Shown here one piece after another: positions 21,437 through 38,091 of a stretch of 64,000 nucleotides of DNA. The stretch covers positions 2,987,573-3,051,572 of the forward strand of contig NZ_CP019331.1 of assembly GCF_002163835.1 (NCBI RefSeq), read 5' to 3'. How positions within the stretch are numbered: the first letter of the stretch is position 1; each line of letters starts with the position of its first letter. Under the pieces are notes generated by a model, which searched no databases, had not been told where the DNA came from, and saw nothing but the letters and a program-made list of their open reading frames with translations. This DNA comes from Polaribacter sp. SA4-10 (GTDB lineage Bacteria; Bacteroidota; Bacteroidia; Flavobacteriales; Flavobacteriaceae). A program made the translations under genes and the position numbers.

Positions 21437-21467
21437 TTTTTGTATCTTTATATAAATTGATTAAGCT

Positions 21468-22772
21468 ATGAGTAAAGGGATTGAAAGAACAAAAGGTACA
21501 ATTAGGTTTGCTTTTAAAACTTCAAAAGCAAAGTTAGAAGAAAATAAAAATATACAAAGTTTAATATTTTTATTTTTTAGTTATGGTAAAATTAGGTTTA
21601 AATACTCTACGGGTTACAAGTCTTGTTTTAATGATTGGGATTTTAAAAAACAACGTATTAAAAATAAAGTTGGTATAGAAAACAAAGACAAGATAAATGA
21701 AGATTTAAGCAGTTTAGAAAACCAATTAAACAAAGAGTGTGCAAATATCCTAAATGAATCTAAAAATATATCTAATGAACTTCTAAAGTATAAGTTAGAC
21801 ATCTTTACAAAGAAAATAGAACCTCATCAAGAAATTAATACAAACCTTACTTTCTTTCAAGTTATAGATAAATATATCCAGGAGAAGGAATCTCATATTT
21901 CAATAATTACAATTAGGTCTTACAAGCAAACAAAAAAAAGATTAGAAGAATATGAAAAGTATTATAACAGAAAACTGATGTTTGATTTTATCAATATTAG
22001 CTTTTATAATGATTTCAATACTTTTATGGAAAGCAAAGATTATGCTTTGAATACCATAGGAAAGCATATAAAGAACTTAAAAACATTTTTAAACTATGCG
22101 CTTGCAGAAGGATATTCGAGTAATCAGAAGTTTAAAAGTAAAGATTTTAAGGTAACATCAGAAACAACTACAGAAATATATTTAACAGATTCAGAAATAA
22201 AAGAAATGTTAGATAAAGATTTATCTAAATATCCAGAAGTAGAATTAGCAAGAGATGTTTTTTTAATTGGTTGTTATACCGGACAAAGAATAAGTGATTA
22301 TAATAATTTATCTGAAAATGATATTGTTGAAATAGATAATGTTCAGTATTTTAAAATTAAGCAACAAAAAAATAAAAGGTACAATAGAGAGGTTTTGTGT
22401 CCTATAACAAAGGAAATGAGAGAAATTATGAATAAAAGGCATAATAAAAAACCTCCTCGTAAGATTGCAGAAAGCTATCTAAACGATTATATAAAGCAAG
22501 TTGGAAAAATGCTTAAATGGAATGAGTTAGTTAAATGTGAGTTTACAAAAGGTGGTAAAACAATTACTAAAATGATTCCTAAATACGATTTAATAAAATC
22601 ACATACTGCAAGAAGAAGTTTTTGTACAAATAAATACAAAGTGGGTATGAGTGTGTATGATATTATGTTGTTTTCTGGTCATACAACAGAGAAAGAGTTT
22701 TATAAATATATTCGTATTAAGGATGAAGAAAGAGCGTCGCACATTGTAAAAACAGGTTTCTTTAATGTTTAA
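21468..22772 (+). CDS. int: tyrosine-type integrase of the island
   Basis: 434 aa. It has an N-terminal Arm-DNA-binding domain (about 10-100), a SAM-like core-binding domain (about 125-215) and the catalytic domain (about 230-430). Catalytic residues are R274 (GQRISDY), H379 and R382 (SHTARRSF), H405 (SGHTT) and Y414. It is full length with no disruptions and lies 180 bp inside the left att site. It is the likely enzyme for integration at and excision from tRNA-Phe. The reading direction is away from the left end. Confidence 0.95.
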   Translation: MSKGIERTKGTIRFAFKTSKAKLEENKNIQSLIFLFFSYGKIRFKYSTGYKSCFNDWDFKKQRIKNKVGIENKDKINEDLSSLENQLNKECANILNESKNISNELLKYKLDIFTKKIEPHQEINTNLTFFQVIDKYIQEKESHISIITIRSYKQTKKRLEEYEKYYNRKLMFDFINISFYNDFNTFMESKDYALNTIGKHIKNLKTFLNYALAEGYSSNQKFKSKDFKVTSETTTEIYLTDSEIKEMLDKDLSKYPEVELARDVFLIGCYTGQRISDYNNLSENDIVEIDNVQYFKIKQQKNKRYNREVLCPITKEMREIMNKRHNKKPPRKIAESYLNDYIKQVGKMLKWNELVKCEFTKGGKTITKMIPKYDLIKSHTARRSFCTNKYKVGMSVYDIMLFSGHTTEKEFYKYIRIKDEERASHIVKTGFFNV

Positions 22773-22840
22773 GTTTTGCAATTGAAAAAAATACTTTCAC
22801 AAATATTTATTATTTATAAGTTAGTAAAAAAAAAGAAAAA

Positions 22841-23656
22841 ATGGAAAAGAGTAAGCCAAAGGTAATTATTAATGAAATTTTAAGCAAAATTGATATAGTA
22901 AGACACCTAAGAAACCTATTTAATGAATTTGAGTTCCCTAAAAAGAAAGAAGAGATTGAAATAGAAATTAGAAAACTTGTCATTGAATTATATCAAGAAT
23001 CTGAAAAAGAAAACCATTATTTTTTAGATTGTTCTCTATCAGTATATGAAAACACCTATCAAACAAGATTAGAAGATTTTTTATCAAATAATAAAGATGG
23101 TAGAGAAGATCAATTTTTAATAAGTGAAATTAAAGAATTAATTAATCCAGAGTATGAATTAAAAGAAATAAGCATATTTGGTTTAAGAGATTATTGTAAT
23201 AACTCTATGTTCAATACTTCATTTAACGCCAAAAAAGATTTTATTAGAGAGAGATTACTCTCTGTTGGTTGGATATGCAATTTAAAACCAGAATTATTTA
23301 AAATGCCTATTACAAACAAAATGTATGAACCACCAATAGAAATAATTTTTACAAAAGACCTTAATTATATTTCTAAAGTTGAAAATGAAAAAATACAATG
23401 GATTGGTAAGCCGTCTCATTTAGGATTTATATTAGGGCAACTTGCTTCACTTGATTATATTGATGCTCCAAAACATAAAAACGGAGAAATCAATTACACC
23501 AAATTTGCAAAATTAGTAATGCAAACATTTCAAACGGATGGTAAGGAAAGTAGTTTAACAAAATATCTTAACTTACAGAGCGAAAAAGGAGAGGAGACAA
23601 AAAGAAATTTCACAAAAGAATCTTTTGTTATTCCACATAAAAAATCAGTGAGTTAA
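22841..23656 (+). CDS. element-associated protein of unknown function, paralogue 1
   Basis: 271 aa, rich in Glu, Lys and Ile. The variable N-terminal 185 residues are mostly helical in character. The C-terminal 85 residues are shared with the next gene in the pattern I-x-W-x-GKPS-x-LGF, LA-x-LDY, GE-x-NYT-x-FAK, YLN, IPHKK-x-VS. The tail resembles the C-terminal module of regulatory proteins such as RteC-type genes on Bacteroidota mobile elements, but that is only a resemblance. It begins 68 nt after int. Confidence 0.7.
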   Translation: MEKSKPKVIINEILSKIDIVRHLRNLFNEFEFPKKKEEIEIEIRKLVIELYQESEKENHYFLDCSLSVYENTYQTRLEDFLSNNKDGREDQFLISEIKELINPEYELKEISIFGLRDYCNNSMFNTSFNAKKDFIRERLLSVGWICNLKPELFKMPITNKMYEPPIEIIFTKDLNYISKVENEKIQWIGKPSHLGFILGQLASLDYIDAPKHKNGEINYTKFAKLVMQTFQTDGKESSLTKYLNLQSEKGEETKRNFTKESFVIPHKKSVS

Positions 23657-23690
23657 AAAAAAATGCTAACCTTTCAAATTAATAAGCCAA

Positions 23691-24602
23691 TTGGAAGCCA
23701 TATTAGAGTTACAAAATATTTTAATTAAAAATTATTATAAAGATTTTATTTTATCAATTTCTGATGAAAATATTAACTTTCAATCCTATTATTCTGAACT
23801 TATAGAATACAGAAATGAAGAGTATATTGAAAAAAAAATAGAAACCATTGAAAAAGAAATTAACTACATCATAGATGATTTAAAACCAGTCTATATTAAA
23901 TCTTTAAGTGAAGTTCTTCTAAAATTATCAGTACTTCCAAATCCTTCAGAAAAAATTAACTATTTAAATCATATCATTAAATTATTTAAAATACCTTTAA
24001 CACAGTTAAGAAAGGATTTTTATATAAATGAAACTGATTCAAGATATTATTCCGAGCCAAGTAAGGCTGAAAACATAGTTTCAACAGATAAGGTTGTTGA
24101 AATTATTATGCAAGATTTGCAAGTTGACGATAATGACATAGAGAGAAAATCATACTCCGAAATTGAGTTTTCAGATTTTGATTTATATGAACTTGAATAC
24201 TCAAATATTAGAATGCAAGTATTATCTAAATTACCTTTTTCTCTTTTTACAATTACTTCAGGTCTAATAAATATTTTGCAACATAAAATTGATGCAATAA
24301 ACGAAGAGCTCCAAGATGAACAAGCTGTAAAAGAAAAAATAGAATGGTGTGGTAAGCCATCGCAATTAGGATTTTTAATAAGTAAACTTGCTGAATTAGA
24401 TTATTTAGTACCTCCTAAAAAAGAGGATGGTGAGACCAATTATACGCAATTTGCTAAAAAGGTTTTACATATTTTTAAAATAAAAACAACAGAAGGTACT
24501 TTGGCAACTTATTTAAACTCAAATACTAATAAAGCCCAAGAAACACATAGAACTTTTGAAAAAGCAAAGTTTAATATACCACACAAAAAAGAGGTAAGTT
24601 AA
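23691..24602 (+). CDS. element-associated protein of unknown function, paralogue 2
   Basis: 303 aa starting at TTG 23691; a stop at 23667-23669 and the lack of ATG or GTG upstream leave this start. The C-terminal 85 residues are clearly paralogous to the preceding gene (IEWCGKPSQLGFLISKLAEL, TNYTQFAKKV, IPHKKEVS). The N-terminal part has little similarity, so a conserved C-terminal module is paired with different N-termini. It lies 34 nt after paralogue 1 and is probably cotranscribed. Confidence 0.7.
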   Translation: MEAILELQNILIKNYYKDFILSISDENINFQSYYSELIEYRNEEYIEKKIETIEKEINYIIDDLKPVYIKSLSEVLLKLSVLPNPSEKINYLNHIIKLFKIPLTQLRKDFYINETDSRYYSEPSKAENIVSTDKVVEIIMQDLQVDDNDIERKSYSEIEFSDFDLYELEYSNIRMQVLSKLPFSLFTITSGLINILQHKIDAINEELQDEQAVKEKIEWCGKPSQLGFLISKLAELDYLVPPKKEDGETNYTQFAKKVLHIFKIKTTEGTLATYLNSNTNKAQETHRTFEKAKFNIPHKKEVS

Positions 24603-24605
24603 TGC

Positions 24606-24627
24606 CGTTCGAGTACCCACTCGAACG
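24606..24627 (+). promoter_or_regulatory. perfect hairpin between element genes
   Basis: The arms CGTTCGAGT / ACTCGAACG flank the loop ACCC. It immediately follows the stop of paralogue 2, and a C/T-rich stretch rather than a clean T run comes next. It may act as a weak terminator or a protein-binding site ahead of the excisionase-like genes. Confidence 0.5.
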
Positions 24628-24683
24628 CTTACTTCTCTTTATCTCTTCTAATTTTGTCCTCGTAACCTTAAAACATTTTTACG

Positions 24684-24980
24684 ATGGAACAAAATAATAT
24701 CACACAAGTACACGGAATTACACCTCAACAATTAAGAGAAAACATTTTAGCAGATGTTAGAACAGAACTGAAAGAAATAATTTTAAACTTTCAACCTAAA
24801 AAACAACCCGAATACCTTACAAGAAAAGAGGTTGCCAAAATCTTAAAAGTATCATTAGTGACACTTTCTGACTGGAATAAAAAAGGAGTATTAAAACCTT
24901 ATAGATTAGGTAACCTTATCAGATATAAAAGTTCTGAATTAGAGACTGCATTAATTAGTATAAACTCTAAAATAAATTAA
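24684..24980 (+). CDS. excisionase-like helix-turn-helix protein
   Basis: 98 aa. A MerR-type (HTH_17) domain occupies about 47-92: YLTRKEVAKILKVSLVTLSD, then WNKKGVLKPYRLGNLIRY. Small HTH_17 proteins near an integrase typically act as excision directionality factors or regulators. It is followed after 1 nt by a second HTH gene. Confidence 0.85.
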   Translation: MEQNNITQVHGITPQQLRENILADVRTELKEIILNFQPKKQPEYLTRKEVAKILKVSLVTLSDWNKKGVLKPYRLGNLIRYKSSELETALISINSKIN

Positions 24981-24981
24981 G

Positions 24982-25275
24982 ATGAAAGGTTTTGAACATC
25001 CATTTAACGATTCTTTAAAGAAAATTTCTTCAAGATTAGAAGAGTTAATCAAATTACAAAAAACAAAGGTTACAGCAAACCCAAAGTATTGCCTTTTAGA
25101 CAATGCAGATATTTTACAACTCTTTAAAATAAGTTCTAAAACTGCTGCAAATTGGCGAGAAGAAAATATATTACCTTACAGTCAAATTAAGGGTAAAATA
25201 TATTATCGCCTTTCAGATATTCATAAAATAATAGATCAAAACTATAACCCAATTAAAAAAAAACTGTTGTATTAG
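24982..25275 (+). CDS. second helix-turn-helix protein, possibly frameshift-fused to the next ORF
   Basis: 97 aa with the HTH_17-like core LLDNADILQLFKISSKTAAN, then WREENILPYSQI and a YYRLSDI strand. Just before the stop it contains an A9 run (25255-25263). A -1 slip there would continue directly into the coding-like sequence upstream of the next gene's only standard start. Otherwise it ends at TAG 25273-25275. Confidence 0.8.
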   Translation: MKGFEHPFNDSLKKISSRLEELIKLQKTKVTANPKYCLLDNADILQLFKISSKTAANWREENILPYSQIKGKIYYRLSDIHKIIDQNYNPIKKKLLY

Positions 25276-26018
25276 ATAATCAAATAAACGTACCCATAGA
25301 ATTTTTTATTAATGCACAAGTAGAGAAATATACCAACGAATTAAAAACTTTTCTACTCTTAAAATTACTCTATAAAAACGGTAAATCTAAACTATCAAAT
25401 ATAGAATTATCCTTTATACAGTATGTGTTACTAATAAACAGAAAAACGCTAAACAAACACATTTTACTATGTAAAGAATTAGGATGGGTAATTTATAATA
25501 GCAAAACAACCTATTATCAGATTAAAGCATTCGATAAAATTAGAGAAGAAAATAATTGGGAAGTAAGACTATCATTTCCAATAAACTTAAATACCATTCA
25601 AGACTTAAAAGCAATAACAGGAGCAGTTATTTATGGATATCTCCACAAAGATTTTTGGAGAAAAGTAAAGAGAGAAAAAAGCGTGCAAATAAAGGGATGC
25701 ACCTATTATTTTTTATCTCCTCGCTTTAACTATAAAGAACAATACGCTCCTGTTTCTATTTATGGTGTAGAAGCTATATTTAATATAACTCCAGCAACTG
25801 CATCTAGGTTAAAGAATAGTGCCGCTAAAAAGGGATTTATAAAATTAAAGAAAAATTATTCTGATATAATTGATGATAAATATGCACTACAAAAAGGCAA
25901 AAAATACAATGACTTAAAACAGAATATTGTCTACAAAAAAGGTAAAAACAGAGAGCAATTAGTAGATACTACCTACCCTCTTTTTCACTTTAAAAAACGG
26001 AAACTTTTGCAACCATAA
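25276..26018 (+). CDS. putative DNA-binding (winged-helix-like) protein, true start unclear
   Basis: The only standard start is GTG 25425 (197 aa). However, the same frame is open and protein-like back to about 25264 (LDNQINVPIEFFINAQVEKY, then TNELKTFLLLKLLYKNGKSK), with no ATG, GTG or TTG there. It may be expressed as a -1 frameshift fusion with the preceding HTH protein, or a small indel may have broken a fused gene. The C-terminal part (YGVEAIFNITPATASRLKNS, then AAKKGFIKLKK) reads like a winged helix, as in element replication or regulatory proteins. Function unknown. Confidence 0.6.
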
Positions 26019-26196: not shown

Positions 26197-28251
26197 ATGC
26201 CATCTGATAAATTAGACTTATCTACACCAGATTTTGTAAACCAAAATATAGAAAAAATAGCTGCTTTATTTCCTAACTGCGTAACAGAAACTGCAGAAGG
26301 AAAAGCCATAGATTTCGATCTTTTAAAACAAGAACTAAACCACGAAGTGGTAGAAGGGGTAAAAGAACGTTACCGATTAGAATGGCCAGGTAAAAAAGAA
26401 GCCATTGTAACGGCAAATTTGCCAACCACAAAAACATTAAGACCTGTACGTAAAGATTCTGTAAATTTTGATACTACTGAAAACATATACATAGAAGGCG
26501 ACAATTTAGAAGTATTAAAAATTTTACAAGAAAGTTATTTGGGTAAAATTAAAATGATATACATAGACCCGCCTTACAACACTGGTAAAGATTTTATATA
26601 TAAAGACAACTTTACACAAGATAGTACAGAGTTTAAAGAGAAAACCGACCAAATAGATGAAGATGGCAATCGTTTAGTAGCAAACCCAGATAGTGCGGGG
26701 CGTTATCATTCTGATTGGATTTCTATGATGTATCCTCGTTTAAAATTAGCTCGTAATTTATTAACTGATGATGGGGTTATTTTTATTTCAATTGGAGAAC
26801 AAGAAGTCCATAATTTAAGAAAAGTTTCAGATGAAATTTTTGGAAGTGTAAACTTTATAGGTGGTGCTGGTAGAATCTCAAAAAAAGCAAATAATAAAGG
26901 TGACTATTGGGCTCCTAATTTTGATCACGTACTAACTTATTGCAAAAACAGAGAATTCTGTGTTCCCTTTTTTGGAGGTATTAATTATAGTGCCTATACT
27001 GAAATTGAAACAGATGGTCCTCGAAAAGGGGAAAAGTATCAATTAGTCCGCCTATATATGACAAGTCTTGACCCCAGACCAAACCAAAGATATTTTATAG
27101 AATGTCCTGACGGTAGTTTTGTTATTCCTCCAGGAGAAGTGTTTCCTGGCGAGAAAATTGATGCTGCTCACATTACACCAGAAAGCAAAAAAGATAAAGT
27201 TTGGCGTTGGTCATTCGATTCCTATTTAAAAAAGAAAGACCAGATTGTAGTTAAAAAGGTCAGATCTTCAAATCTTGTAAATGAAAATGGTGGTGAAACT
27301 TTTTGGAATGTTTTTACAAAAACATATTTAAATGATGTAATTGAAAATTCATCAGCAACTCCAAACAATTTTATCGAAAATCATATTAATCAATCATCAT
27401 CTCACGAACTTAAAAAATTAGGGATTCCTTTCGATTTTGCAAAACCAAGCTCTCTAATTAAGTTTTTAATGGAAACTTGTAGAGTTTCGGAAAACGATAC
27501 TGTGCTTGACTTCTTTTCAGGTTCAGCGTCTTCAGCTCACGCAGTTCTTGACAAAAATGCAGAAGATGAAAAATTTAGAAAATTTATTATGGTTCAACTT
27601 CCTGAAATAAATGAACCAAATTCTGATGAATTTAAAGCTGGTTATAAAAATATTTGTGAAATAGGGAAAGAACGTATTCGTCGTTCTGCAAAATCTATTA
27701 TCGATGCACAATTATTAAAACTTAATGAGAAAAAAGAAGCCTTAAATAAATTAGAGACAAATGGCGAATTGCTAAAAGACACTGAAAAAATAGAATTACT
27801 AAAAACAGAAATTTCTAATTTAGAGTTAAAAATAAACAATTTAGACATAGGTTTTAAAGTCTTTAAAGTGGATAGTAGTAATATGCAAGATGTGTATTAC
27901 AAACCACAAGATTACAATCAAGGGCAATTAGATGTTTTTGCAGATAACATAAAAGAAGAAAGAACTTCAGAAGATTTACTTACACAAGTTTTATTAGATT
28001 GGGGTTTACCACTTACCTTAAAAACAGAAACACTTACTATACAAAACAAAGAAGTTTTTAAAGTAGATAATAATTACTTAATGGCGTGTTTTGCAAAAGA
28101 TGTAGATGAAGCCTTTGCAAAAGAAATAGCAAGCTACCACCCTTTGCGTATTGTTTTTAAAGATAGCGGTTTTAAAGATGATACTGCTAAAGAAAATGTA
28201 AAACAATTGCTAAAACAATTAAGTCCTAACACAGAAATGAAAGTTATATAG
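26197..28251 (+). CDS. mod: type III restriction-modification methyltransferase (Mod)
   Basis: 684 aa, beta-class N6-adenine methyltransferase. The catalytic DPPYNTG is at 124-130 and the SAM motif DFFSGSASS at 438-446. Between them (about 200-430) lies the expected target-recognition region. A C-terminal extension includes a short coiled coil (about 500-560) typical of type III Mod. It methylates one adenine per asymmetric site and guides Res. It is first in the defence operon; the next gene begins 2 nt after its stop. Ile and Gly codon choice in the central region differs visibly from the ends, suggesting a swapped recognition domain. Confidence 0.92.
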   Translation: MPSDKLDLSTPDFVNQNIEKIAALFPNCVTETAEGKAIDFDLLKQELNHEVVEGVKERYRLEWPGKKEAIVTANLPTTKTLRPVRKDSVNFDTTENIYIEGDNLEVLKILQESYLGKIKMIYIDPPYNTGKDFIYKDNFTQDSTEFKEKTDQIDEDGNRLVANPDSAGRYHSDWISMMYPRLKLARNLLTDDGVIFISIGEQEVHNLRKVSDEIFGSVNFIGGAGRISKKANNKGDYWAPNFDHVLTYCKNREFCVPFFGGINYSAYTEIETDGPRKGEKYQLVRLYMTSLDPRPNQRYFIECPDGSFVIPPGEVFPGEKIDAAHITPESKKDKVWRWSFDSYLKKKDQIVVKKVRSSNLVNENGGETFWNVFTKTYLNDVIENSSATPNNFIENHINQSSSHELKKLGIPFDFAKPSSLIKFLMETCRVSENDTVLDFFSGSASSAHAVLDKNAEDEKFRKFIMVQLPEINEPNSDEFKAGYKNICEIGKERIRRSAKSIIDAQLLKLNEKKEALNKLETNGELLKDTEKIELLKTEISNLELKINNLDIGFKVFKVDSSNMQDVYYKPQDYNQGQLDVFADNIKEERTSEDLLTQVLLDWGLPLTLKTETLTIQNKEVFKVDNNYLMACFAKDVDEAFAKEIASYHPLRIVFKDSGFKDDTAKENVKQLLKQLSPNTEMKVI

Positions 28252-28253
28252 TT

Positions 28254-29711
28254 ATGGTAGTTTCTACAATAAATTCTCAAATAACACTTTTGTATCTACA
28301 AACAAAAGTAGAAAACCAATACTTTGAGCGTAAAGGCTTGGGCGAAAAAGATATTGCACCCACAAAAATTGCCAATGAACTTATTGGTATGTTAAATGCA
28401 GATGGTGGTGTATTGGCTTTTGGTGTTGCAGATAATGGTACTATAGAAGATTTAAATATATTTCCACCACAAAAATTAAGTAATTATAGAAATTTAATAC
28501 ACGATTTTATTGAGCCTTTTGGCAAAATAGAGTTAGAGGAAGTTGTAATTTCTGGGCAGCTTATTTTTCTGTTTCACGTAGACCAAGATATAGAACGTAT
28601 CTATAGACGAAAAGACAATCAAGATATATATTTACGTATCGATGATAAAAATAAAAAATTAGATAGAGATGCAGTTCGTAAATTAGAATACGACAAACAA
28701 ATAAGGAGGTTTGAGGACGAATTAGAAATTAATTTCGATTTTAATGATTTAGATGAGAGTTTATTAGAACGTTATAAAGACAAATTAAATTATTCTGGTA
28801 GCTTATTAGATTTGTTGGTAAAAAGGCATTTGGCTGTAAGAAAAGATGGGCAATACAACATAAAAAAAGCAGGTGTATTACTATTTGCAAAAGACCCCGA
28901 AAAATACATAACATCTGCTTCTTTGCGTTACGTGCGTTATGAAGGTACAGAAACAAAAGTAGGTGCAGAACATAATGTGGTAAAAGATATTCGTTTCGAG
29001 AACAACATTCCTTGGATTATTGGTAAAGTAAAAGAGTTCTTACATCTTACTTTAAAAGATTATTATTTCCTCGATTTAAAAATGGGACGTTTTAACAAAG
29101 TTCCAGAATACCCAGAAGAAGCTTGGTTAGAAGGTATTGTAAATGCACTTTGTCATAGATCTTATAATGTACAGGGTAATTTAATTTACATTAAACATTT
29201 CGATAATCGTTTAGAAATTTCTAACAGTGGCCCTTTACCTGCACAAGTAAATATAGAAAATATTAGAACAGAACGATATTCAAGAAATCCAAGAATTGCA
29301 AGAGCATTAGAAGATATGGGTTTTGTAAGACAGTTAAATGAAGGTGTTTCTCGTATATACAAATCTATGGAAGAATCAATGCTTTCTAAACCAGAATATA
29401 TAGAGAAAAATGGCAATGTATATTTAATTCTTCGTAATAAAATAAGCGATCATAGTAAAACAATACCAGATGCCATTATAAAGCATATTCAAAGTAATTG
29501 GTCTAATTTTAATGATACACAAAGAAAAATTTTACAGTTTTTATTATATAACAACCAAGCTACAGTTTCAGAATTAGCAGCTCACACAGAGATTAATGAA
29601 AAAACGATAAAACTCTACCTAAAACAGTTTATAGAAAAAGAAAAAATATTAGATAGATTAAGCGATAAGGTTCGTGATAAAAACGCAAAATATACTTTTA
29701 GGAAGGATTAA
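28254..29711 (+). CDS. AlbA_2 / ATP-binding-domain protein inserted between mod and res
   Basis: 485 aa. An N-terminal AlbA_2 (Schlafen-like) domain spans about 15-130 (ENQYFERKGLG, ANELIGMLNADGGVLAFGVA). It is followed by a HATPase_c_4/AAA_4-type region (about 200-385: WLEGIVNALCHRSYN, RLEISNSGPLP, RNPRIARALEDMGF) and a C-terminal winged HTH (about 415-475). Relatives are annotated as putative transcriptional regulators or RecG-like ATP-binding proteins. Its place 2 nt after mod, within the operon, suggests regulation of the system or an added effector. Confidence 0.88.
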   Translation: MVVSTINSQITLLYLQTKVENQYFERKGLGEKDIAPTKIANELIGMLNADGGVLAFGVADNGTIEDLNIFPPQKLSNYRNLIHDFIEPFGKIELEEVVISGQLIFLFHVDQDIERIYRRKDNQDIYLRIDDKNKKLDRDAVRKLEYDKQIRRFEDELEINFDFNDLDESLLERYKDKLNYSGSLLDLLVKRHLAVRKDGQYNIKKAGVLLFAKDPEKYITSASLRYVRYEGTETKVGAEHNVVKDIRFENNIPWIIGKVKEFLHLTLKDYYFLDLKMGRFNKVPEYPEEAWLEGIVNALCHRSYNVQGNLIYIKHFDNRLEISNSGPLPAQVNIENIRTERYSRNPRIARALEDMGFVRQLNEGVSRIYKSMEESMLSKPEYIEKNGNVYLILRNKISDHSKTIPDAIIKHIQSNWSNFNDTQRKILQFLLYNNQATVSELAAHTEINEKTIKLYLKQFIEKEKILDRLSDKVRDKNAKYTFRKD

Positions 29712-29859
29712 AAACCTTTAACGAACAAATTATTAGGTATTTAGTTTACTGATATATAGATATATAGATGTATTAAGGAACATTTCAGAGTAAATAAGGA
29801 ACAAATAAAGAAAAGCATTTGCTGTTTTTCTTTAAAAGAAGCTCAAAGTAAAAAGAAAA

Positions 29860-32800
29860 ATGAAGTTACAATTTAAAGAACAGCAATTTCAAGTAGATGC
29901 CGTAAGTGCAATAACAGATTGTTTTGTAGGGCAAGAGAAAGGAAATGGTCATTTTACTTTAGAGCGAAGTAAGCAAATATTACAAAAAGCAAAACAAGCT
30001 GCTGCAGGAATCAATACGTTACAATTTACAGAAGATGTAGATGAAAATATTGGATACAGAAACAAACTACTAAAAATTACAGACAGCCAGTTATTACAAA
30101 ATATACAAAAAGTACAGCAACAAAATGATATTAGAGAAAGTGAAGTTTTAGAAAGACCAAAAGTTCAAAAAAAAGGAATAAATCTTACTATTGAAATGGA
30201 AACGGGTACAGGTAAAACCTATACCTACATTCGTACAATGTATGAGTTACATAAACAATACGGCTGGTCTAAATTTATAATTATTGTACCAAGTGTTGCT
30301 ATAAGAGAAGGTGTTTATAAATCTTTTGAAGTAACGCAAACGCACTTTCAAGAAAAGTATGGGCATAGGATAAAGCCATTTATATACAATTCTTCTAAAC
30401 CAACAGATATAGAAAACTTTGCATCAGATAGCCGTATAAGTGTTATGATTATTAATACGCAAGCTTTTAATGCAAGAGGTAAAGATGCAAGACGTATTTA
30501 TGCAGAAATAGATAGTTTTCAATCAAGAAGACCAATAGATATTATTGCACAAACCAATCCTATTTTAATCATAGACGAACCACAATCTGTAGATGGTGTT
30601 AAAACGCTGGCGAGTATGCAAGATTTTAATCCATTATTTACAATACGCTATTCTGCAACACATAAAGAAGAATATAACAAAGTATATCGTTTAGATGCGT
30701 TAGATGCGTATGGTAAAAAGTTAGTGAAAAAAATACACGTAAAAGGAATTAACTTAAAAGGTTCTACTGGTACAACTGGTTATGTGTATTTAGAGCAAAT
30801 TGCAATAAAACCAGGCAAACCACCAGTAGCAATAATTGAATACGAAAAAAGGCAAGGTACAGGAGTAAAGCGCAAAAGAGAACGTTTAGAAGAAGGTGCA
30901 AATTTGTTTGAATTATCTGGTGAAATGCCACAATATAAAAATTGCTTAATTACAGATATTAGTGGTGCTTCTAATACCATTTCTGTAAACGGTGTAACGT
31001 TGCAAGCTGGTGATGCAGTTGGCGATTTGGATGAAAAAGCATTTAGGCGAATTCAAATACGTGAAACCATTTTATCGCATTTACAAAAAGAGAAAGAATT
31101 ATTTTCTAAAGATATAAAAGTATTGTCTTTATTTTTTATTGATACTGTAGATAAGTATCGTAAATATGATGAAAATGGTGAACAAGTTTTAGGTGAATAT
31201 GCAGAGATATTTGAAGAAGAATACAATAAATTAAAAAATGACTTTTTAGATTTATTTCAACAAGACTATAACGATTTTTTAAAAAATACAGATCCTGGTT
31301 CTGCACGTAAAGCATATTTTCCAAGTGCATATGCAGAATTTTTAGATAGAGATAAAGCAGATGAAATTCATAATGGATATTTTTCTATTGATAAAAAGAA
31401 AAAATTTATAGACCCAAGTGTAAAACGTGGTAAAGAAGATTCTGATGATATTTCTGCCTACGATTTAATTATGAAAGATAAAGAGCGTTTGTTGAGTATG
31501 AATGAACCAACACGTTTTATCTTTTCGCATTCTGCATTAAAAGAAGGTTGGGATAATCCTAATGTTTTTCAAATTTGCGCATTAAAACATACAGAATCGG
31601 CAAGTAAAAACAGAAGACGTCAAGAAGTTGGTCGTGGAATGCGTTTATGTGTTGAGGGTAAAAATGGTATTCGTCAAGATTATGATACAGTGGGTGATGC
31701 TGTTCACAGCATTAATAAATTAACAATTATAGCTTCAGAAAGCTATGAAGATTTTGCAAAAGGATTACAGTCAGAAATTGCAGCAACATTAAAAGACAGA
31801 CCACAAAAAGCTGAAGTAGAATTTTTTATTGGTAAAATGGTTACAGATGCAATGGGTGTAGAAATGCGCATTGATAAAGACGTCGCCAAAAAGCTGAATA
31901 AGATATTGTATAAAAATGATATTATAGATGAAGATGATAGAATTACAGAAGAAGGTAAAAAAGCTATTGAAGATAATACAGTAACCTTACCTGAAAATTT
32001 AGAACCATTTAGATCAGCTATTACTAAATTATTAAAATCTGTTTATACTGGTGAAATGATTAAGCCAGAAAATGATAGAGATAAAATTACAGTTACACTA
32101 AACAAAAACTTCCACAAAAAAGAATTTCAAGAGTTATGGAAACGTATCAATATTAAAACCATTTATGAAGTAAAATTTAATTCCGAAAAACTAATTAGTG
32201 ATAGTGTAATTAGACTAAATGCAGATTTATACATTTCGGATAGAGTGTACGAAATTAAAACAGGTTTTCTAAAGGATAGTAGTAAAGAAGAATTACAAAG
32301 CAAAGAAGGTTTTAAACAAACTAATAGGGAGTCTAAAAAGCTAAATGCAGATTTATATACAGATACAGTATATGATATTGTTGGAGAAATAGTAAATGTC
32401 ACCAACTTAACTCGAAGAAGTATAGTAGCTGTTTTAAAGAAAATGAGTCCTCAAAAATTTGCTTTATTACGTAAAAACCCAGAAGAATTTATTGCGAAAT
32501 CTGGTGGTTTAATAAATGAAGTAAAAGCCAGTTTAATATTAAACCATATTTCTTATTACAAAACAGAGGAACGTTATGATGCTAAAACGGTATTTACAAA
32601 TGAAATTACAGTAGACAGAAATTCTGAAGAAGTTAAAAATCATATTTACGATTACATCATATCAGATTCTAATATTGAAAAAGAATTTGCAGATGCATTA
32701 AGTACAAGTACAGCGGTTTCTGTATTTGCTAAATTACCTAAAGATTTTTATATCACAATTCCAACAGGTCGTTACAGTCCTGATTGGGCTATTGTTTTTG

Positions 32801-32994
32801 AGAAAGAAAAAGTACGTGAAATTTACTTTGTTGCCGAAACAAAAGGTTCTGATAAACAACAAGATTTAAGGGGCATTGAGGCTTTAAAAATACATTGTGC
32901 AGAAGAGCATTTTAAAGAAATAGGTAATGGCGAAGTTCACTTCGCTAAAATAAAAGATTATGAAAAAATGACACAAATGCTAACTTTTATATAA
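29860..32994 (+). CDS. res: type III restriction enzyme (Res) helicase-nuclease
   Basis: 1044 aa, superfamily 2 motor with nuclease. Walker A METGTGKTY has K119, the DExx box DEPQ is at 239-242, and the later motifs include YSATH, SALKEGWDNPN and QEVGRGMRL. The C-terminal endonuclease motif is PDW (D975) followed by AETKG (E993, K995), an intact PD-(D/E)xK site. With Mod it should form a restriction complex cleaving after translocation. A 148-bp gap separates it from the AlbA_2 gene; the SNF2 gene starts 5 nt after its stop. Confidence 0.93.
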   Translation: MKLQFKEQQFQVDAVSAITDCFVGQEKGNGHFTLERSKQILQKAKQAAAGINTLQFTEDVDENIGYRNKLLKITDSQLLQNIQKVQQQNDIRESEVLERPKVQKKGINLTIEMETGTGKTYTYIRTMYELHKQYGWSKFIIIVPSVAIREGVYKSFEVTQTHFQEKYGHRIKPFIYNSSKPTDIENFASDSRISVMIINTQAFNARGKDARRIYAEIDSFQSRRPIDIIAQTNPILIIDEPQSVDGVKTLASMQDFNPLFTIRYSATHKEEYNKVYRLDALDAYGKKLVKKIHVKGINLKGSTGTTGYVYLEQIAIKPGKPPVAIIEYEKRQGTGVKRKRERLEEGANLFELSGEMPQYKNCLITDISGASNTISVNGVTLQAGDAVGDLDEKAFRRIQIRETILSHLQKEKELFSKDIKVLSLFFIDTVDKYRKYDENGEQVLGEYAEIFEEEYNKLKNDFLDLFQQDYNDFLKNTDPGSARKAYFPSAYAEFLDRDKADEIHNGYFSIDKKKKFIDPSVKRGKEDSDDISAYDLIMKDKERLLSMNEPTRFIFSHSALKEGWDNPNVFQICALKHTESASKNRRRQEVGRGMRLCVEGKNGIRQDYDTVGDAVHSINKLTIIASESYEDFAKGLQSEIAATLKDRPQKAEVEFFIGKMVTDAMGVEMRIDKDVAKKLNKILYKNDIIDEDDRITEEGKKAIEDNTVTLPENLEPFRSAITKLLKSVYTGEMIKPENDRDKITVTLNKNFHKKEFQELWKRINIKTIYEVKFNSEKLISDSVIRLNADLYISDRVYEIKTGFLKDSSKEELQSKEGFKQTNRESKKLNADLYTDTVYDIVGEIVNVTNLTRRSIVAVLKKMSPQKFALLRKNPEEFIAKSGGLINEVKASLILNHISYYKTEERYDAKTVFTNEITVDRNSEEVKNHIYDYIISDSNIEKEFADALSTSTAVSVFAKLPKDFYITIPTGRYSPDWAIVFEKEKVREIYFVAETKGSDKQQDLRGIEALKIHCAEEHFKEIGNGEVHFAKIKDYEKMTQMLTFI

Positions 32995-32999
32995 AAAGT

Positions 33000-35900
33000 A
33001 TGAAGTTAATAGATAATGTAAATAATCGTTTAAACGATGAGTTAAAAACAGAGATTAAGAAAGGTAGTAAAATGGCTATTGCAGCTTCTTCTTTTTCTAT
33101 CTATGCTTTTGAGGCTTTAAAAAAAGAATTAAAAGGAATAGAGGAATTGAAATTCATTTTCACTTCACCTACTTTCTTAAAGGAAAAACTAAATAAAGAA
33201 TCAAGAGAGTTCTATATTCCTCATATTTTTAATGAAGCAGATTTATGTGGTGGTGAATTTGAATTACGTTTAAAAAGTGAACTAAATCAAAGGGCAATAG
33301 CTAAAGAATGTTCACAATGGGTCAAGGACAAAGCAACCTTTAAATCTAATAAAAATGCTAATACACCTTTAAATGGGTTAATACATATAGATAATAAAGA
33401 TTCTGGAGCTGCATTCTCAAATATTAACGGTTTTACAACTTCAGATTTAGGGATAAGTCATAAAAAAGGGTTTCCAACACTAATTCAGAAAGTAGATTTT
33501 CCACAAAGTAGTGCATACTTAGAATGGTTCAATCAAATTTGGGAAAATGAAGAAAATTTACAAGATGTAACTAATTTTGTTCAAGAGTATTTTGAGAATG
33601 CTTACAAAGAAAATAGTCCAGAGTTTATTTACTTCATAACATTGTATAATATTTTTAGTGATTTTTTAGAAGATATTGCATTAGAGAATTTACCCAATGA
33701 TGAAATAGGTTTTAAAGACACATTAGTTTGGTCTAAACTATATAATTTTCAAAAAGATGCAGTAATTGGTGCAATTAATAAATTAGAAAAGTACAACGGT
33801 TGTATCATTGCAGATAGTGTGGGTCTAGGTAAAACGTTTTCTGCTTTAGGTGTTATTAAATACTATGAGAAAAGGAATAAAGATGTTTTAGTATTGTGTC
33901 CTAAAAAATTAGAAGCAAACTGGAATACGTATCGTCAGAATGACAAAGACAATATTCTATCTAAAGACAGATTTAGATATGATGTATTATTCCATACAGA
34001 TTTATCTCGTGAAAGAGGTCAGAGTAATGGTAGAAATTTAGAAAATGTAAATTGGGGTAATTATGGATTAGTTGTAATTGATGAATCTCATAACTTTAGA
34101 AATAATAATACATCTGTTGGTAAAGAAAATAGATACCAAAAACTATTACGTAAAATAATGCAAGAAGGTATTGAAACAAAGGTTTTAATGCTATCAGCAA
34201 CACCTGTAAACAATCGTTTTAATGATTTAAAAAATCAATTAGCCTTAGCTTATGAAGGTGCTTCTGAAAAGATTGATGAAAAATTAGATACAGAAAGAGG
34301 TGTTGATATGGTTTTTAGAAGAGCACAACAAGCTTTCAATAGTTGGTCTAAATTTGATACAGAACAACGTACTACGGAAAAACTATTAGAAATGTTAGAT
34401 TTTGATTTCTTTGAAATTTTAGATAGTTTAACAATTGCTCGCTCAAGAAAACATATTACAACTTACTATGACACTTCAGATATTGGGGAGTTTCCAAAAA
34501 GAAATAAACCAATTTCAATTCAAAGTGCATTAACTAAACATACAGGTATTAATTACATTGATATAGCAGAGCGCTTAACGTTGCTAAACCTTTCTGTTTA
34601 TTCTCCTTTAAGTTACATACTACCAAGTAAGGTGCAATTGTATGCAGATTTATATGATAAACAGGTAAAAGAAGGTTCTGGTAAATTTGCTCAGGTAGAT
34701 AGAGAAGCAAGTTTGAAGATTTTAATGCGTATGAATCTTCTAAAACGGATTGAAAGTTCTGTTTATTCCTTTAGATTAACGCTACAGAATATTTTAGGTC
34801 AAATTATAAATGCTATTAACGCAATTGAAAAAGGAGAAGAAAATACATTTTCTGGTTTACAAGCAAGTATTACTAATGATATGGATTGGGATGCAGATTG
34901 GGGTGATGAAGAAAATGTAATTGGTAAAAAAATAAAGGTTCATATTGCTGATATGGATGGTAGAAAATGGAAGGAAGATTTGAATGCTGATGTAGAAATA
35001 TTAGAACAGCTTCTATCCGAAATTTCTATGGTTAAAGATGGTTTAGATTATAAGTTAAATGATTTAAAACACCTTGTAAAAGACAAAATTGAAAACCCTA
35101 AAAACCCTAATAATAAAAAAATAATCATATTTACTGCTTTTGCAGATACTGCAAATTATTTATATGATAGTTTAAAATCAGAGTTCAAAACGTTTTATGG
35201 TTTAAATACTGCATTAATAACAGGTAGTAAGCGTAAATGCACCACTAAAGAAATTCCAACAGATTTAAATACCTTATTAACGTGTTTTTCACCACGTTCT
35301 AAAAGTAAACAACAATTGCATCCTAATATTAAAGAATCGATAGATATCTTAATTGCAACTGACTGTATCTCAGAAGGTCAGAATTTACAAGATTGTGATT
35401 TTTTAATAAACTATGATATTCATTGGAATCCTGTTCGTATTATTCAACGTTTTGGTAGAATAGATAGGATTGGCTCAATCAATTCAAATATTACAATGGT
35501 TAATTTTTGGCCAGATATTACATTAGATAATTATATTAATCTAAAGTCAAGAGTAGAAAATAAAATGTTAATCAGTAATATGGCGGGTACTGGTGCTGGT
35601 GATGATAATCCTTTAAACTCAGAAGATAAGGATCTAGAATATAGAAAAATACAGCTTAAAAAATTACAAGAAGAAGTAGTTGATTTAGAGGATCTAAGAG
35701 AAGGTGTAAGTATAACGGATCTAGGTTTAAATGATTTTAGAATTGATTTATCAAATTATATTAAAAAATATGGAGAATTAAAAAACATTCCTGAAGGACT
35801 TCACGCTATTACAGATGCCAATGAGTATTTTGAAAAGGGGGTAATATATGTTTTAAAAAATGTAAACACTTCTGTGAATATTGATAAAATGAATCGCTTA

Positions 35901-36233
35901 CATCCTTATTATATGGTGTATATAAAAGATGATGGTGAAGTTAAATTAGGTCATATTGATGGAAAGAAAACGTTAGATGTTTTCAGAATGTTATGTAAAG
36001 ATAAAAAGGAGCCATTAGTGCAGGTTTGTGAATCATTTGAAAATGAAACAAATCAATATAGAGATATGTCAAAGTACTCTAACTTACTTAAAAAAAGTAT
36101 TGGCTCTATAGTTGAAACAGAGCAGGAAAAAGAAGTTTTAAGTTTATTTAGAGCTGGTGGGACAAATTCTGGTAAAAGTCAAATTAAAGGCATAGAAGAT
36201 TTTAAATTAATTTCATTTTTAGTAATTAAATAA
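33000..36233 (+). CDS. SNF2-type helicase with degenerate PLD-like N-terminus
   Basis: 1077 aa. The N-terminal 200 residues resemble a phospholipase-D-like domain (SIYAFEALKKEL, LKFIFTSPTF, SNINGFTTSDLG), but no HxKx4D is present, so catalysis by that domain is doubtful. The SF2 motor has Walker A ADSVGLGKTF (K278), DESH at 361-364, LSATPVNNRF, FTAFADT, IATDCISEGQNLQ and QRFGRIDRIG near 816-825. It belongs to the helicases found in anti-phage islands (DISARM-like neighbourhoods). It follows res by 5 nt and is followed by the DUF4391-like gene after 1 nt, so it is part of the operon. Confidence 0.9.
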   Translation: MKLIDNVNNRLNDELKTEIKKGSKMAIAASSFSIYAFEALKKELKGIEELKFIFTSPTFLKEKLNKESREFYIPHIFNEADLCGGEFELRLKSELNQRAIAKECSQWVKDKATFKSNKNANTPLNGLIHIDNKDSGAAFSNINGFTTSDLGISHKKGFPTLIQKVDFPQSSAYLEWFNQIWENEENLQDVTNFVQEYFENAYKENSPEFIYFITLYNIFSDFLEDIALENLPNDEIGFKDTLVWSKLYNFQKDAVIGAINKLEKYNGCIIADSVGLGKTFSALGVIKYYEKRNKDVLVLCPKKLEANWNTYRQNDKDNILSKDRFRYDVLFHTDLSRERGQSNGRNLENVNWGNYGLVVIDESHNFRNNNTSVGKENRYQKLLRKIMQEGIETKVLMLSATPVNNRFNDLKNQLALAYEGASEKIDEKLDTERGVDMVFRRAQQAFNSWSKFDTEQRTTEKLLEMLDFDFFEILDSLTIARSRKHITTYYDTSDIGEFPKRNKPISIQSALTKHTGINYIDIAERLTLLNLSVYSPLSYILPSKVQLYADLYDKQVKEGSGKFAQVDREASLKILMRMNLLKRIESSVYSFRLTLQNILGQIINAINAIEKGEENTFSGLQASITNDMDWDADWGDEENVIGKKIKVHIADMDGRKWKEDLNADVEILEQLLSEISMVKDGLDYKLNDLKHLVKDKIENPKNPNNKKIIIFTAFADTANYLYDSLKSEFKTFYGLNTALITGSKRKCTTKEIPTDLNTLLTCFSPRSKSKQQLHPNIKESIDILIATDCISEGQNLQDCDFLINYDIHWNPVRIIQRFGRIDRIGSINSNITMVNFWPDITLDNYINLKSRVENKMLISNMAGTGAGDDNPLNSEDKDLEYRKIQLKKLQEEVVDLEDLREGVSITDLGLNDFRIDLSNYIKKYGELKNIPEGLHAITDANEYFEKGVIYVLKNVNTSVNIDKMNRLHPYYMVYIKDDGEVKLGHIDGKKTLDVFRMLCKDKKEPLVQVCESFENETNQYRDMSKYSNLLKKSIGSIVETEQEKEVLSLFRAGGTNSGKSQIKGIEDFKLISFLVIK

Positions 36234-36234
36234 G

Positions 36235-36885
36235 ATGAATTATTTTCAATTACCAAGTCAAACTATTAAAGACAAAAGCATTCCTAAAAAAGCTTTTTAT
36301 GAATACACAACGTCTAAACAAAAACAATTATTTATTGATGTAGTAGATAAAATTAAGTGGCAATATAAACTAGCAAGCGATACTATTAATTTAGAAGGTA
36401 TTGAGGTGCAAGAGATACAGGTTTTTGAAATTAATTTAAAACAAAAAAAGAATATAGAATCGGTATTGCCTATTATTGAAAAAGCAATTCCTTACCATAT
36501 AATATTTATGATATCTTTTAATGATGAAGTAATGTTGTATACGTCTCAAAAACACGCACATCCAGTTAATGAAAACAATTCTGTAGTAGATTGGATATTT
36601 AAAACTGACTGGTTCAATAGATCATTAAGAAAATACACTATCAATTTAAAAGAAAGTTTAGATAAAATTTTTAGTGATTTTTGCTTTCAGTTATCAAATA
36701 ATTCAGATCCTGGTTCTAAAAAGAATTTAAAAGAACTGATAGAAAAAGAACAAAAAATTCAAGAACTAAAAAATCAAATCATAAGATTAGAAGCGCAAAT
36801 AAAAAGAACAAAACAATTTAATAGAAAACAACCTTTAAATGGCACTTTAAATCAGTTAAAAATAGAACTTAAATCAATAATATAA
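36235..36885 (+). CDS. DUF4391-like protein, last gene of the defence operon
   Basis: 216 aa. The family-like pattern is visible: IPKKAFYE, a WQYKLASDTINLEG segment, EIQVFEINLK, PYHIIFMI, and a C-terminal coiled coil (about 165-205). Its start is 1 nt after the helicase stop. DUF4391 genes commonly neighbour PLD-helicases, which suggests a partner or clamp for that enzyme; its biochemical role is not known. The assignment rests on recalled family pattern only. Confidence 0.75.
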   Translation: MNYFQLPSQTIKDKSIPKKAFYEYTTSKQKQLFIDVVDKIKWQYKLASDTINLEGIEVQEIQVFEINLKQKKNIESVLPIIEKAIPYHIIFMISFNDEVMLYTSQKHAHPVNENNSVVDWIFKTDWFNRSLRKYTINLKESLDKIFSDFCFQLSNNSDPGSKKNLKELIEKEQKIQELKNQIIRLEAQIKRTKQFNRKQPLNGTLNQLKIELKSII

Positions 36886-37124
36886 AACCCACACAACATA
36901 AAACCCAGAATTTTCGTACCTCAAAAACCTCTGTCTTTTGTGTTGTTCCACTCACCAACACATAGTTGGTTTTTATGTCATAATATTTGTAGCCAAAGCT
37001 AAAATGGCACATTGCTTGTTTTATTTAAACCTAGTTATATTTAAAAATTAGAATAATAAAAAAGCAAAGAGCCATTGCCAACGCTCAAACAACTATTTCG
37101 CCACAAAACCAACCCCAAGCTAAG

Positions 37125-37216
37125 TTACATAATAGAAGTTATAATAGCAAAAAACCTTTCAAAGGTACGCTAACGCTAAGTTTTTATTTTTTCGTAGTTA
37201 TAACTGCTATTATGTA
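37125..37216 (+). repeat. long imperfect inverted repeat
   Basis: The left arm TTACATAATAG-AAGTTATAA pairs with the right arm TTATAACTGCTATTATGTAA, and the A-rich/T-rich inner parts extend the stem. The loop contains CCTTTCAAAGG and GCTAACGC. The size and form recall a folded cassette end or a miniature element. Confidence 0.65.
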
Positions 37217-37782
37217 AAATAGCCGCACATCCAACGCTCACACCCGATATTAATAATGATATTTAGATATTTTAATAACAATTCGTCTTTGTTGCATTGT
37301 TTTTATAAGTGCTTTTGGTAAATTTAAATTAAGCGTAGGAACTAAATAATTAAACTTAGAAAATTAAAGAAAATTTATAAAGCACCTATAAAATCAAAAA
37401 ATGCCAATAAGAGTAAAACTTTTTATTTGTGAAGAAAATAGTTAGTAACCGTTTTCACTAAAAGTAAATGCAATTAGAAAAAATGGGAGTAGTCATTTAA
37501 TAAGAAAATCAATTTATTAAAATAACAAAAGGTAAGCATTCACTTTTAATAAAACCTCAATAAAATTAGAAAGCACAAATAAAAAGTCTTTACCCTTATT
37601 CTCGCTTCTGCCAACGCACTAGGTACTTTAATTTTTTTAAATGAAATTATTTAAAAAGAAAAACCCACATCATTGAGAGGTGGGAAAATTGCTATGAAAA
37701 AGAAAGTACTAATATACAAGAAAAATGTTTGATTAATATTTTATTTCCAATATGATGTCATTCAATCGCCATTGGGCTAACA

Positions 37783-37841
37783 TTTTTAAAGATTGATAAA
37801 CTCCACGCTCATACCAGCCTCTGTTTATCAATCTTTAAAAA
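37783..37841 (+). repeat. perfect 19-bp inverted repeat with 21-nt loop
   Basis: The arms TTTTTAAAGATTGATAAAC and GTTTATCAATCTTTAAAAA are exact complements. No T run follows the right arm outside the palindrome, so a standard terminator is not obvious. Confidence 0.85.
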
Positions 37842-38091
37842 CGATAAGATGTATTTTTCCCTTACCTCATTCATCTGCACAAAAATTCTGCTAAATTCAT
37901 TTAATTTCTTTATCAAAATTCTTTGTTTGTTACATTTCGTTAAGTAAAAAGAGGTAAAAGAAAGTAAAAGGTATCAAGGATATCTATAGTTATAACAAAA
38001 GTCATTTATTTTAATTATATTAGTACTTAAGCCATAGTAAAACCGTACCAAGTCCAATGTTGAATATTAATTTTAAATACAAATAGTAGTT

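Follow-up and report, generated by a model that had tools for sequence, protein, structure and literature searches.

Gene content of the locus

The window analysed here is a stretch of 64,000 nt from Polaribacter sp. SA4-10 and contains five intact, co-directional ORFs separated by gaps of 2, 148, 5 and 1 nt (Table 1). The gaps agree exactly with a preliminary description of this DNA, which was made from its letters alone. The recombinase stretch upstream of the five genes is probably a carrier element and lies outside the mechanism proposed below. Exact direct repeats of at least 15 nt, which could correspond to att sites, were not found between 14-22.6 kb and 36.4-46 kb.

Table 1. Features of the locus (positions in the window)
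Feature	Position	Strand	Length	Status	Pfam
Tyrosine recombinase, two unassigned ORFs and two HTH_17 ORFs, upstream	21468..25275	+			assigned by Pfam
Mod, type III beta-class DNA methyltransferase	26197..28251	+	684 aa	core	N6_N4_Mtase
AlbA_2 (Schlafen-type), HATPase_c_4 and winged helix protein	28254..29711	+	485 aa	optional cargo	SLFN_AlbA_2, HATPase_c_4, wHTH
Res, type III ATPase-endonuclease	29860..32994	+	1044 aa	core	ResIII, RE_endonuc
Hel, SNF2-type helicase/translocase with degenerate N-terminal PLD domain	33000..36233	+	1077 aa	core	SNF2-rel_dom, Helicase_C
DUF4391 protein	36235..36885	+	216 aa	core	PF14335, 166 bits (cut-off 29.9)

Mod has the motif DPPY at position 124 and matches the PADLOC profile MTase_III with 662 bits over residues 4-684, which is near end to end. 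Res matches REase_III with 965 bits over almost its whole length and shows the motifs GTGKT (at 116), DEPQ (at 239), PD (974-975) and ETK (993-995); its nuclease residues P974, D975, E993 and K995 are kept in 96-97% of 80 aligned Res proteins. A Mod with DPPY and a type III profile, together with a Res in which SF2 ATPase motifs are combined with a C-terminal PD-(D/E)XK domain, places the pair in type III restriction-modification (R-M). Indeed, the Mod and Res families, their motifs and their adjacency are common to this locus and the classical two-gene systems EcoP1I, EcoP15I and BceSI. In contrast to the latter, the window system has two further conserved genes, which encode the SNF2 pseudo-PLD helicase and the DUF4391 protein.

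Recurrence of the core and variability of the cargo

The helicase and DUF4391 genes recur together with mod and res as a four-gene core, which was found across eleven phyla plus one candidate division. All four families are present in 72 of 80 helicase-anchored loci, which are the best 80 of at least 581 helicase relatives, ranked by similarity to the window helicase, so that near kin are over-represented; seven of the eight loci lacking the full set lie on short or ending contigs. In addition, full-length DUF4391 matches in the Bacteroidota samples adjoin a helicase gene in 20 of 20 cases, with one small ORF in between in two of them. The earlier proposal that the helicase and the DUF4391 protein belong with Mod and Res, which was to be given up if they rarely co-occurred, is therefore upheld.

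The gene order was compared in 74 loci whose four genes are all nearly full-length, namely 60 of the helicase scan, 13 others and the window. The order Hel-DUF4391-Mod-Res was found in 62 loci, and in four more the same order contains two mod genes. The order of the window, Mod-Res-Hel-DUF4391, is present in seven loci and Res-Mod-Hel-DUF4391 in one. Thus, the two modules stay linked in whichever order they stand, and since the four genes recur in several orders, a chance association is untenable. The distances are also correlated, with rho values of 0.917 for Hel and Res, 0.831 for Hel and DUF4391 and 0.780 for Hel and Mod, while the maximum in 200 permutations each was at most 0.24; many of the pairs behind these values are not independent.

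The fifth gene behaves differently. A match to the AlbA_2 protein of more than 200 bits was detected in 18 of the 80 loci, 16 times inside the stretch occupied by the core genes and twice immediately beyond it, where a contig ends, and 14 of the 58 scanned cargo proteins are of this type. Among 61 loci in which Hel, Mod and Res are near-complete, 25 show no cargo gene. The five-gene unit suggested at first could therefore not be maintained, and a one-off composite system of five genes was rejected in favour of a recurring four-gene core with optional AlbA_2. Other loci carry cargo genes from other defence families among the core genes; in the Bacteroidota cargo scan, which covered 20 selected proteins, 16 are cargo, four of these without any family, and the remaining four are three genes of locus L058 and one gene upstream of the core of locus L039. 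With AlbA_2, HATPase_c_4 and a winged helix, the window protein has the domain set of the Schlafen-GHKL-wHTH auxiliary effectors, and a similar set is described in PMC12839542. It may serve as an optional extra effector or regulator.

Such variable cargo could mean that the core genes, too, are plain neighbours, clustered in a defence island without functional link. We consider this very improbable, and it is already disfavoured by the data, because the cargo varies while the four core genes stay constant across many phyla, in several orders and with correlated distances.

The two modules differ in their independence. A Hel-DUF4391 pair wholly without Mod was not seen on contigs long enough to judge; in one locus (L125) the pair is accompanied by a mod fragment only, and res is absent. 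Mod-Res without helicase does exist, as in 16 Res rows and in the E. coli asnT locus, where the two-gene unit lies beside an integrase gene. Locus L203 has a Res fragment that shares 56% identity with the Res of the window; here the first 240 helicase positions remain beside Mod and DUF4391 is missing. In locus L057 a DUF4391 remnant is left and the helicase is gone. The helicase is thus not essential to Mod-Res, being absent beside Res relatives and lost even from close ones. Plasmids and a phage record are among the carriers of the four-gene units, and some units lie next to integrases; an E. coli IncFIB plasmid and an Erysipelothrix phage record, both outside the 61-locus cargo sample, carry the bare four genes.

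The helicase, the DUF4391 protein and related systems

All catalytic motifs of Mod, Res and the helicase had been described as present. This is correct for Mod, Res and the ATPase motifs of the helicase (GLGKT at 275, DESH at 361 and QRFGR at 816), but not for its PLD nuclease motif HxK, which is replaced at the aligned positions. The helicase matches the PADLOC model C3a139 ('HKD+Snf2') with 420 bits over residues 2-1076, and the best PDB match of its modelled N-terminus is SauUSI (7clg, E 1.2e-5). All 100 aligned DUF4391-linked helicases, the window's included, have lost HxK, while HxK and GSxN are intact in the outgroup relatives of loci L058 and L059. A looser pattern, H.K.{4,9}[DE], matches 14 of 106 helicase N-termini, among them those of L058, L059 and the window. 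The window match begins at residue 154, downstream of the GSxN-equivalent stretch (GFT at 144), and was for this reason discounted as a catalytic motif; the other 11 were judged by aligned columns only and not singly. An active PLD nuclease, as assumed initially, was thus rejected. Judging from alignment and structural model, Hel is a pseudonuclease with the PLD fold kept and catalysis lost, and the degenerate domain is probably retained as a dimerising or DNA-binding scaffold. With HxK lost in the helicase and PD...ExK conserved in Res, cutting falls to Res, the predicted sole DNase of the four-gene core.

Hel has in common with the type IV enzyme SauUSI that an N-terminal PLD fold is joined to an SF2 motor in one protein; for SauUSI, PMC12707154 gives the architecture PLD-helicase-SRA. 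Unlike SauUSI, Hel has lost HxK, shows no SRA domain by Pfam and is accompanied by Mod-Res. With the PLD anti-phage protein profile NF042964 it reaches 130.3 bits against a curated cut-off of 1100.

A SNF2-family motor paired with a methyltransferase is also found in DISARM (DrmD) and BREX (BrxH), and profile matches relate Hel to the SNF2 helicases of DISARM, BREX and Dpd. In class 1 DISARM, DrmD occurs with drmA, drmB and drmC. The DrmD profile gives 159.5 bits on Hel (cut-off 610), and by Pfam no other DISARM or BREX components were found among the five genes. Likewise, the five genes include neither PglZ/BrxC nor the DUF499 and DUF3780 of BR type 2, by which BREX and related systems are defined in PMC12839542.

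Outside the group, the PLD-SNF2 helicases of L058 and L059 are combined with an Eco57I-type methyltransferase, and the examined stretches contain no Mod or Res. L058 has a YhcG/DUF1016 gene and L059 a gene in the corresponding place, the family scan at this place covering L058 only. The N-termini of both methyltransferases show sub-threshold DUF4391 matches of 28.2 and 23.4 bits (cut-off 29.9; hhalign probability 38%).

The AF2 model of the DUF4391 protein (pLDDT 95.1) predicts an alpha/beta domain with a C-terminal helical hairpin. It had no match at E<=0.001 in a fold search of PDB and BFVD, and profile comparison revealed no relatives of known structure at E<=1. PADLOC-DB 2.0.0 assigns Mod and Res to type III models and the helicase to a candidate model, and has no match for DUF4391.

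Type III systems in which a helicase-like ATPase is added, namely Eco86II and BspHIV, were reported by Murray 2021 (PMC8259958), and such systems are present in hundreds of genomes. The window system is therefore not wholly undescribed, though the earlier ATPases apparently belong to another lineage. Like these systems, the window locus combines a type III Mod and Res with an SF2 ATPase without recognised nuclease motif. As Eco86II candidate we assigned, by gene order and annotation and from six stretches covering about 299 kb of 5.14 Mb, positions 16031-25448 of L155 in strain NCTC86. Its DrmD-like SNF2 protein (963 aa) can be aligned to the helicase of the window over the motor core only, at 26% identity, its Mod has 1040 aa, its Res is unalignable with the window's and there is no DUF4391 between or beside the genes. 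Given this assignment, the window does not show the Eco86II arrangement, in which an ATPase of the same family lies immediately 5' of mod without a further core gene, and identity with Eco86II was rejected because of the different SNF2 protein, the unalignable Res and the absent DUF4391. For BspHIV, the reported 140-bp gap between the ATPase gene and mod is ill-suited to an intervening DUF4391 gene. A description of Hel-DUF4391-Mod-Res as a unit was not found in the open-access literature, in which DUF4391 turned up in a single paper. BceSI and a SNF2 gene of B. cereus, if adjacent, would be a candidate earlier case.

Possible role of the helicase and the DUF4391 protein

Classical type III enzymes perform ATP-dependent cleavage about 25 bp from their site and need two head-to-head sites. 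We tentatively read the locus as a four-gene, helicase-augmented type III R-M system with one cargo gene, in which the motor and a DUF4391 adaptor would serve restriction by Mod-Res; on this reading as a whole we are almost evenly divided. Mod would methylate self sites, and Mod and Res would cut unmodified DNA via the PD-(D/E)XK domain of Res. Hel-DUF4391 is most likely an auxiliary translocase module, with DUF4391 as the putative adaptor that couples the SNF2 motor to Mod-Res. The motor would most likely be recruited to (or by) Mod-Res on unmodified DNA and act by ATP-driven translocation or remodelling, which could let Res cut invading DNA that the two-site-requiring classical enzymes cut poorly. 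The analysis shows the gene content and its conservation, the co-inheritance of the genes, the loss of the PLD catalytic residues and the integrity of the ATPase and Res motifs; a physical complex, this direction of coupling and the benefit to restriction are inferred.

Alternatively, Hel-DUF4391 could be a second, largely independent defence layer, which strips or unwinds unmodified invading DNA or stalls its replication and shares only the self/non-self mark set by Mod, with Mod-Res restricting independently of it. Mod-Res pairs that live alone and the kinship to the DISARM, BREX and Dpd helicases are in line with this, and so are data for the related systems: according to Murray 2021 (PMC8259958), the extra ATPase is dispensable for methylation, Mod being sufficient in Eco86II and BspHIV, and in the cutting Eco86II fraction Mod and Res were detected but no ATPase peptide. 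We nevertheless regard such a layer as unlikely, because Hel-DUF4391 wholly without Mod is missing on adequate contigs, Hel tracks Res more closely than Mod, and the motor itself lacks a recognised nuclease.

Eviction of proteins from DNA is an activity of SNF2 motors in other settings. Together with the occurrence of the units on plasmids, in the phage record and next to integrases, all situations in which a naive host has to be protected, this could point to a control module that, rather than promote cutting, holds Res in check on host DNA or displaces it there, for restriction alleviation or to make establishment safe after transfer. This appears improbable to us, since the two-gene Mod-Res at the asnT locus manages beside an integrase without Hel-DUF4391, and since loss of the helicase with retention of Mod-Res (L057, L203) seems to be tolerated.

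Coming back to the auxiliary translocase module, it is possible, though we would sooner doubt than assert it, that the locus represents an unnamed type III class with four components, whose pseudonuclease SNF2 motor and DUF4391 protein, the latter with a possibly new fold, turn ATP-switch sliding into motor-driven restriction. If this is true, type III systems have acquired SNF2 motors on at least two independent occasions, once in the lineage of the window and once with the DrmD-like protein of the probable Eco86II locus. The helicase-augmented form is widespread and little described. Textbook type III systems consist of two genes, and if a form present in many phyla regularly has a second motor and a small protein for which no structural kin are recognised, this minimal description is incomplete. 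What a SNF2 motor adds to restriction is a question left by Murray 2021 (PMC8259958), and the bare four genes on the E. coli plasmid offer a clean, testable system to address it.

The window operon and its surroundings

Re-reading of the window reproduced exactly the five ORFs and the gaps of the preliminary description. Pfam and PADLOC searches assigned the genes to Mod, an AlbA_2/HATPase_c_4/wHTH protein, Res, an SNF2-type helicase and DUF4391. The catalytic motifs had been described as complete; this holds for Mod, Res and the ATPase motifs of the helicase, but HxK and GSxN of its N-terminal PLD domain are gone. Since a tyrosine recombinase and two HTH_17 ORFs lie upstream in this single-contig genome (3.44 Mb), the five genes probably ride on an integrative element. 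Two unassigned upstream ORFs are alike at their C-termini as judged by eye. Element ends were not found as exact direct repeats of at least 15 nt between 14-22.6 kb and 36.4-46 kb of the window. The 1.2 kb 3' of the operon (window 36886-38091) contain no ORF of at least 70 aa.

Features and their positions in the loci compared
Locus	Position (nt)	Feature
Window	21468-26018	Upstream part of the probable integrative element: tyrosine recombinase, two unassigned ORFs (271 and 303 aa), two HTH_17 ORFs, 197-aa ORF
L057	around 9987-10469	DUF4391 remnant adjoining Mod-Res, no helicase
L203	6314-7150	Helicase remnant (first 240 positions) beside Mod
L058	5172-13481	PLD (HxK intact)-SNF2 helicase, Eco57I-type methyltransferase, YhcG/DUF1016
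L059	1-7570	PLD (HxK intact)-SNF2 helicase, Eco57I-type methyltransferase
L155 (E. coli NCTC86)	16031-25448	SNF2 (963 aa)-Mod (1040 aa)-Res (1126 aa) unit

A conserved core of four genes

In the Pfam search, window genome included, DUF4391 matched in 8 of 97 relatives (5 above the cut-off) and, phylum-wide, in 19 of 296 genomes (17 above it). The helicase adjoins DUF4391 in all 20 distinct full-length matches, window included; at L043 and L045 one small ORF separates the two genes, and at the truncated matches (L053-L057) an intact helicase is missing. We also sampled from the helicase side, taking the best 80 of at least 581 relatives. DUF4391 (more than 100 profile positions) was seen in 76 of these 80, and in 68 of the 76 its frame opens at most 150 nt from the helicase end. 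The refuting condition set earlier, that helicase and DUF4391 rarely co-occur with mod/res, did not hold: all four families are present in 72 of these best 80 loci. One of the 72 is unassigned; the others represent eleven phyla plus a candidate division. Seven of the other eight are short contigs or contig ends (L067, L097, L101, L103, L118, L127 and L130), and the eighth, L125, with a Mod fragment and no Res within 23 kb, is a decayed locus.

Gene order was compared in 74 loci whose four genes are all nearly full-length: 60 from the set of 80, the window itself and 13 more. Hel-DUF4391-Mod-Res was found in 62 and, with two Mods, in four more; the window's order, Mod-Res-Hel-DUF4391, in seven; and Res-Mod-Hel-DUF4391 in one. 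Two mod genes stand beside one res in L077, L090, L139 and L036, possibly two specificities serving one Res. Distance correlations were 0.917 (Hel-Res), 0.831 (Hel-DUF4391), 0.813 (Res-Mod), 0.803 (Res-DUF4391) and 0.780 (Hel-Mod), compared with a largest permuted value of 0.32; that the core genes are mere neighbours seems to us very improbable. The helicase has the highest median identity (0.56; Res 0.50, Mod 0.46, DUF4391 0.28), and the motor is therefore the most conserved member. We conclude that helicase, DUF4391, Mod and Res form a real and conserved type III R-M variant of broad distribution.

The helicase is present at E<=1e-100 in 100 of 72,556 plasmid records (92 cover at least 80% of it) and at E<=1e-50 in 5 of 50,697 phage records (3 with at least 80%). 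The four core genes are side by side on the E. coli IncFIB plasmid pEC21Z137-115K and in Erysipelothrix phage phi1605, where DUF4391 carries another annotation, yet scores 131 bits. Two overlapping queries matched 68 and 88 of 5,426 E. coli genomes, with at least 80% coverage in 10 and 23. In L146 and L150 the immediate neighbour of the helicase is a WYL or HTH regulator gene, and in E. coli MB64 (L149, 11172-14617) an HTH gene annotated 'mads1' is directly 5' of helicase-DUF4391-Mod-Res.

Other genes among the core genes vary. No gene of at least 120 aa was found between them in 25 of 61 loci with near-complete Hel, Mod and Res (from the 80); this is an upper bound, because genes shadowed by longer antisense ORFs escape the count, for example AlbA_2 of L094. 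AlbA_2 with HATPase_c_4 accounts for 14 of 58 such cargo proteins, and Fic, RhuM, AAA_13, McrBC, GmrSD, HEPN, PIN, Zeta, SIR2_2 and others have one to three members each (25 of the 29 families tallied are among the matches listed). Bacteroidota loci additionally carry YhcG/DUF1016, GmrSD, ORF6N and others. The window AlbA_2 gene is one instance of this variable cargo. In the nearest relative, G017 (L143 and L034), genes for a HerA-like protein, an LHH nuclease and a SUKH protein lie between Mod and Res, and AlbA_2 was not found at this locus.

The helicase and DUF4391 proteins

The model of the N-terminal 245 helicase residues (mean pLDDT 74.6, with low-confidence stretches) best matched SauUSI (E 1.2e-5), phosphatidylserine synthases, NgoAVII R, Zucchini and BfiI in the PDB, all of which we take to be PLD-fold proteins. 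With the HxK and GSxN positions of L058 and L059 as reference in the alignment, HK or GSN is kept in none of 100 DUF4391-linked helicases; among six helicases without detected DUF4391, these two keep both motifs and four do not. The DUF4391-linked helicase is a pseudonuclease. In Res, P974/D975...E993/K995 are kept in 96-97% of 80 sequences, and a plausible history is that Res took over cutting and the PLD nuclease then decayed. L058 and L059 possibly represent a sister system: their methyltransferases share a sub-threshold DUF4391-like stretch at the N-terminus, a further gene lies between helicase and methyltransferase in L059, and Mod/Res were not seen in either stretch, of which L059 starts at a contig end.

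The DUF4391 model (67 sequences, pLDDT 95.1, pTM 0.88) is a mixed alpha/beta domain with a C-terminal helical hairpin. It had no structural match in PDB or BFVD at E<=0.001 and no sequence match to PDB entries; by this comparison a new fold is only a possibility. The most conserved residues are P7 and Q194 (67/67), K18 (66/67), W126 (64/67) and T50 (61/67), and among acidic positions the best kept are E60 (59) and, with 54 each, D82 (E in the window) and E192 (T in the window). We read DUF4391 as a binding protein or adaptor, although it may instead be an unusual enzyme. A control module made of Hel-DUF4391 appears quite improbable.

Linkage to Mod-Res and relation to Eco86II

Res was found at E<=1e-60 in 38 of 296 genomes, window's included. 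Among the 11 other places at least 49% identical, seven are helicase-linked (G117 being a contig-end fragment), three are at contig ends (G313, G305:C77 and G270:C54), and in the last, G234 (L203), Res is a fragment at a contig end and DUF4391 is absent. More distant Res are mixed and include two-gene Mod-Res loci: 16 rows stand alone, 80 are helicase-linked, a class enriched through the helicase-anchored sampling, and 13 are edge rows, pooled whichever side is cut. With edge rows left out, the linkage state changes five times on the FastTree tree. L057 and L203, at least, have apparently lost the helicase module, since a DUF4391 remnant without helicase and a helicase stub, respectively, persist there with Mod.

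Mod-Res occurs without Hel-DUF4391, and Hel-DUF4391 wholly without Mod was not seen on any adequate contig among the best 80 of at least 581 relatives (L125 retains a Mod fragment only). This asymmetry is the clearest constraint on the mechanism. Hel-DUF4391 as an independent layer is unlikely; our tentative preference, at nearly even chances, is that it would be an auxiliary translocase module serving Mod-Res. Its role in type III R-M is open to experimental test.

The four-gene variant is partly anticipated in print. Murray et al. (2021; PMC8259958) described for Eco86II and BspHIV a conserved ATPase that resembles helicases and is encoded 5' of mod in more than 500 genomes; in their study it was dispensable for methylation and went undetected in active Eco86II. 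In the NCTC86 stretches examined (about 299 kb of 5.14 Mb), only the L155 unit fits this description, and it is probably Eco86II. It differs from the window system: its SNF2 resembles DrmD, with a score of 663.5 bits against one DrmD model and 78.8 against C3a139 (the PADLOC candidate model 'HKD+Snf2'), and aligns with the window helicase in the motor only (26%), its Mod is alignable in motif regions only, its Res does not align (best E 3.1), and DUF4391, a core gene in the window system, is absent. Among BspHIV and the rest of the set of more than 500 genomes, some could belong to the present four-gene kind. If L155 is indeed Eco86II, SNF2 motors were acquired by type III systems more than once.
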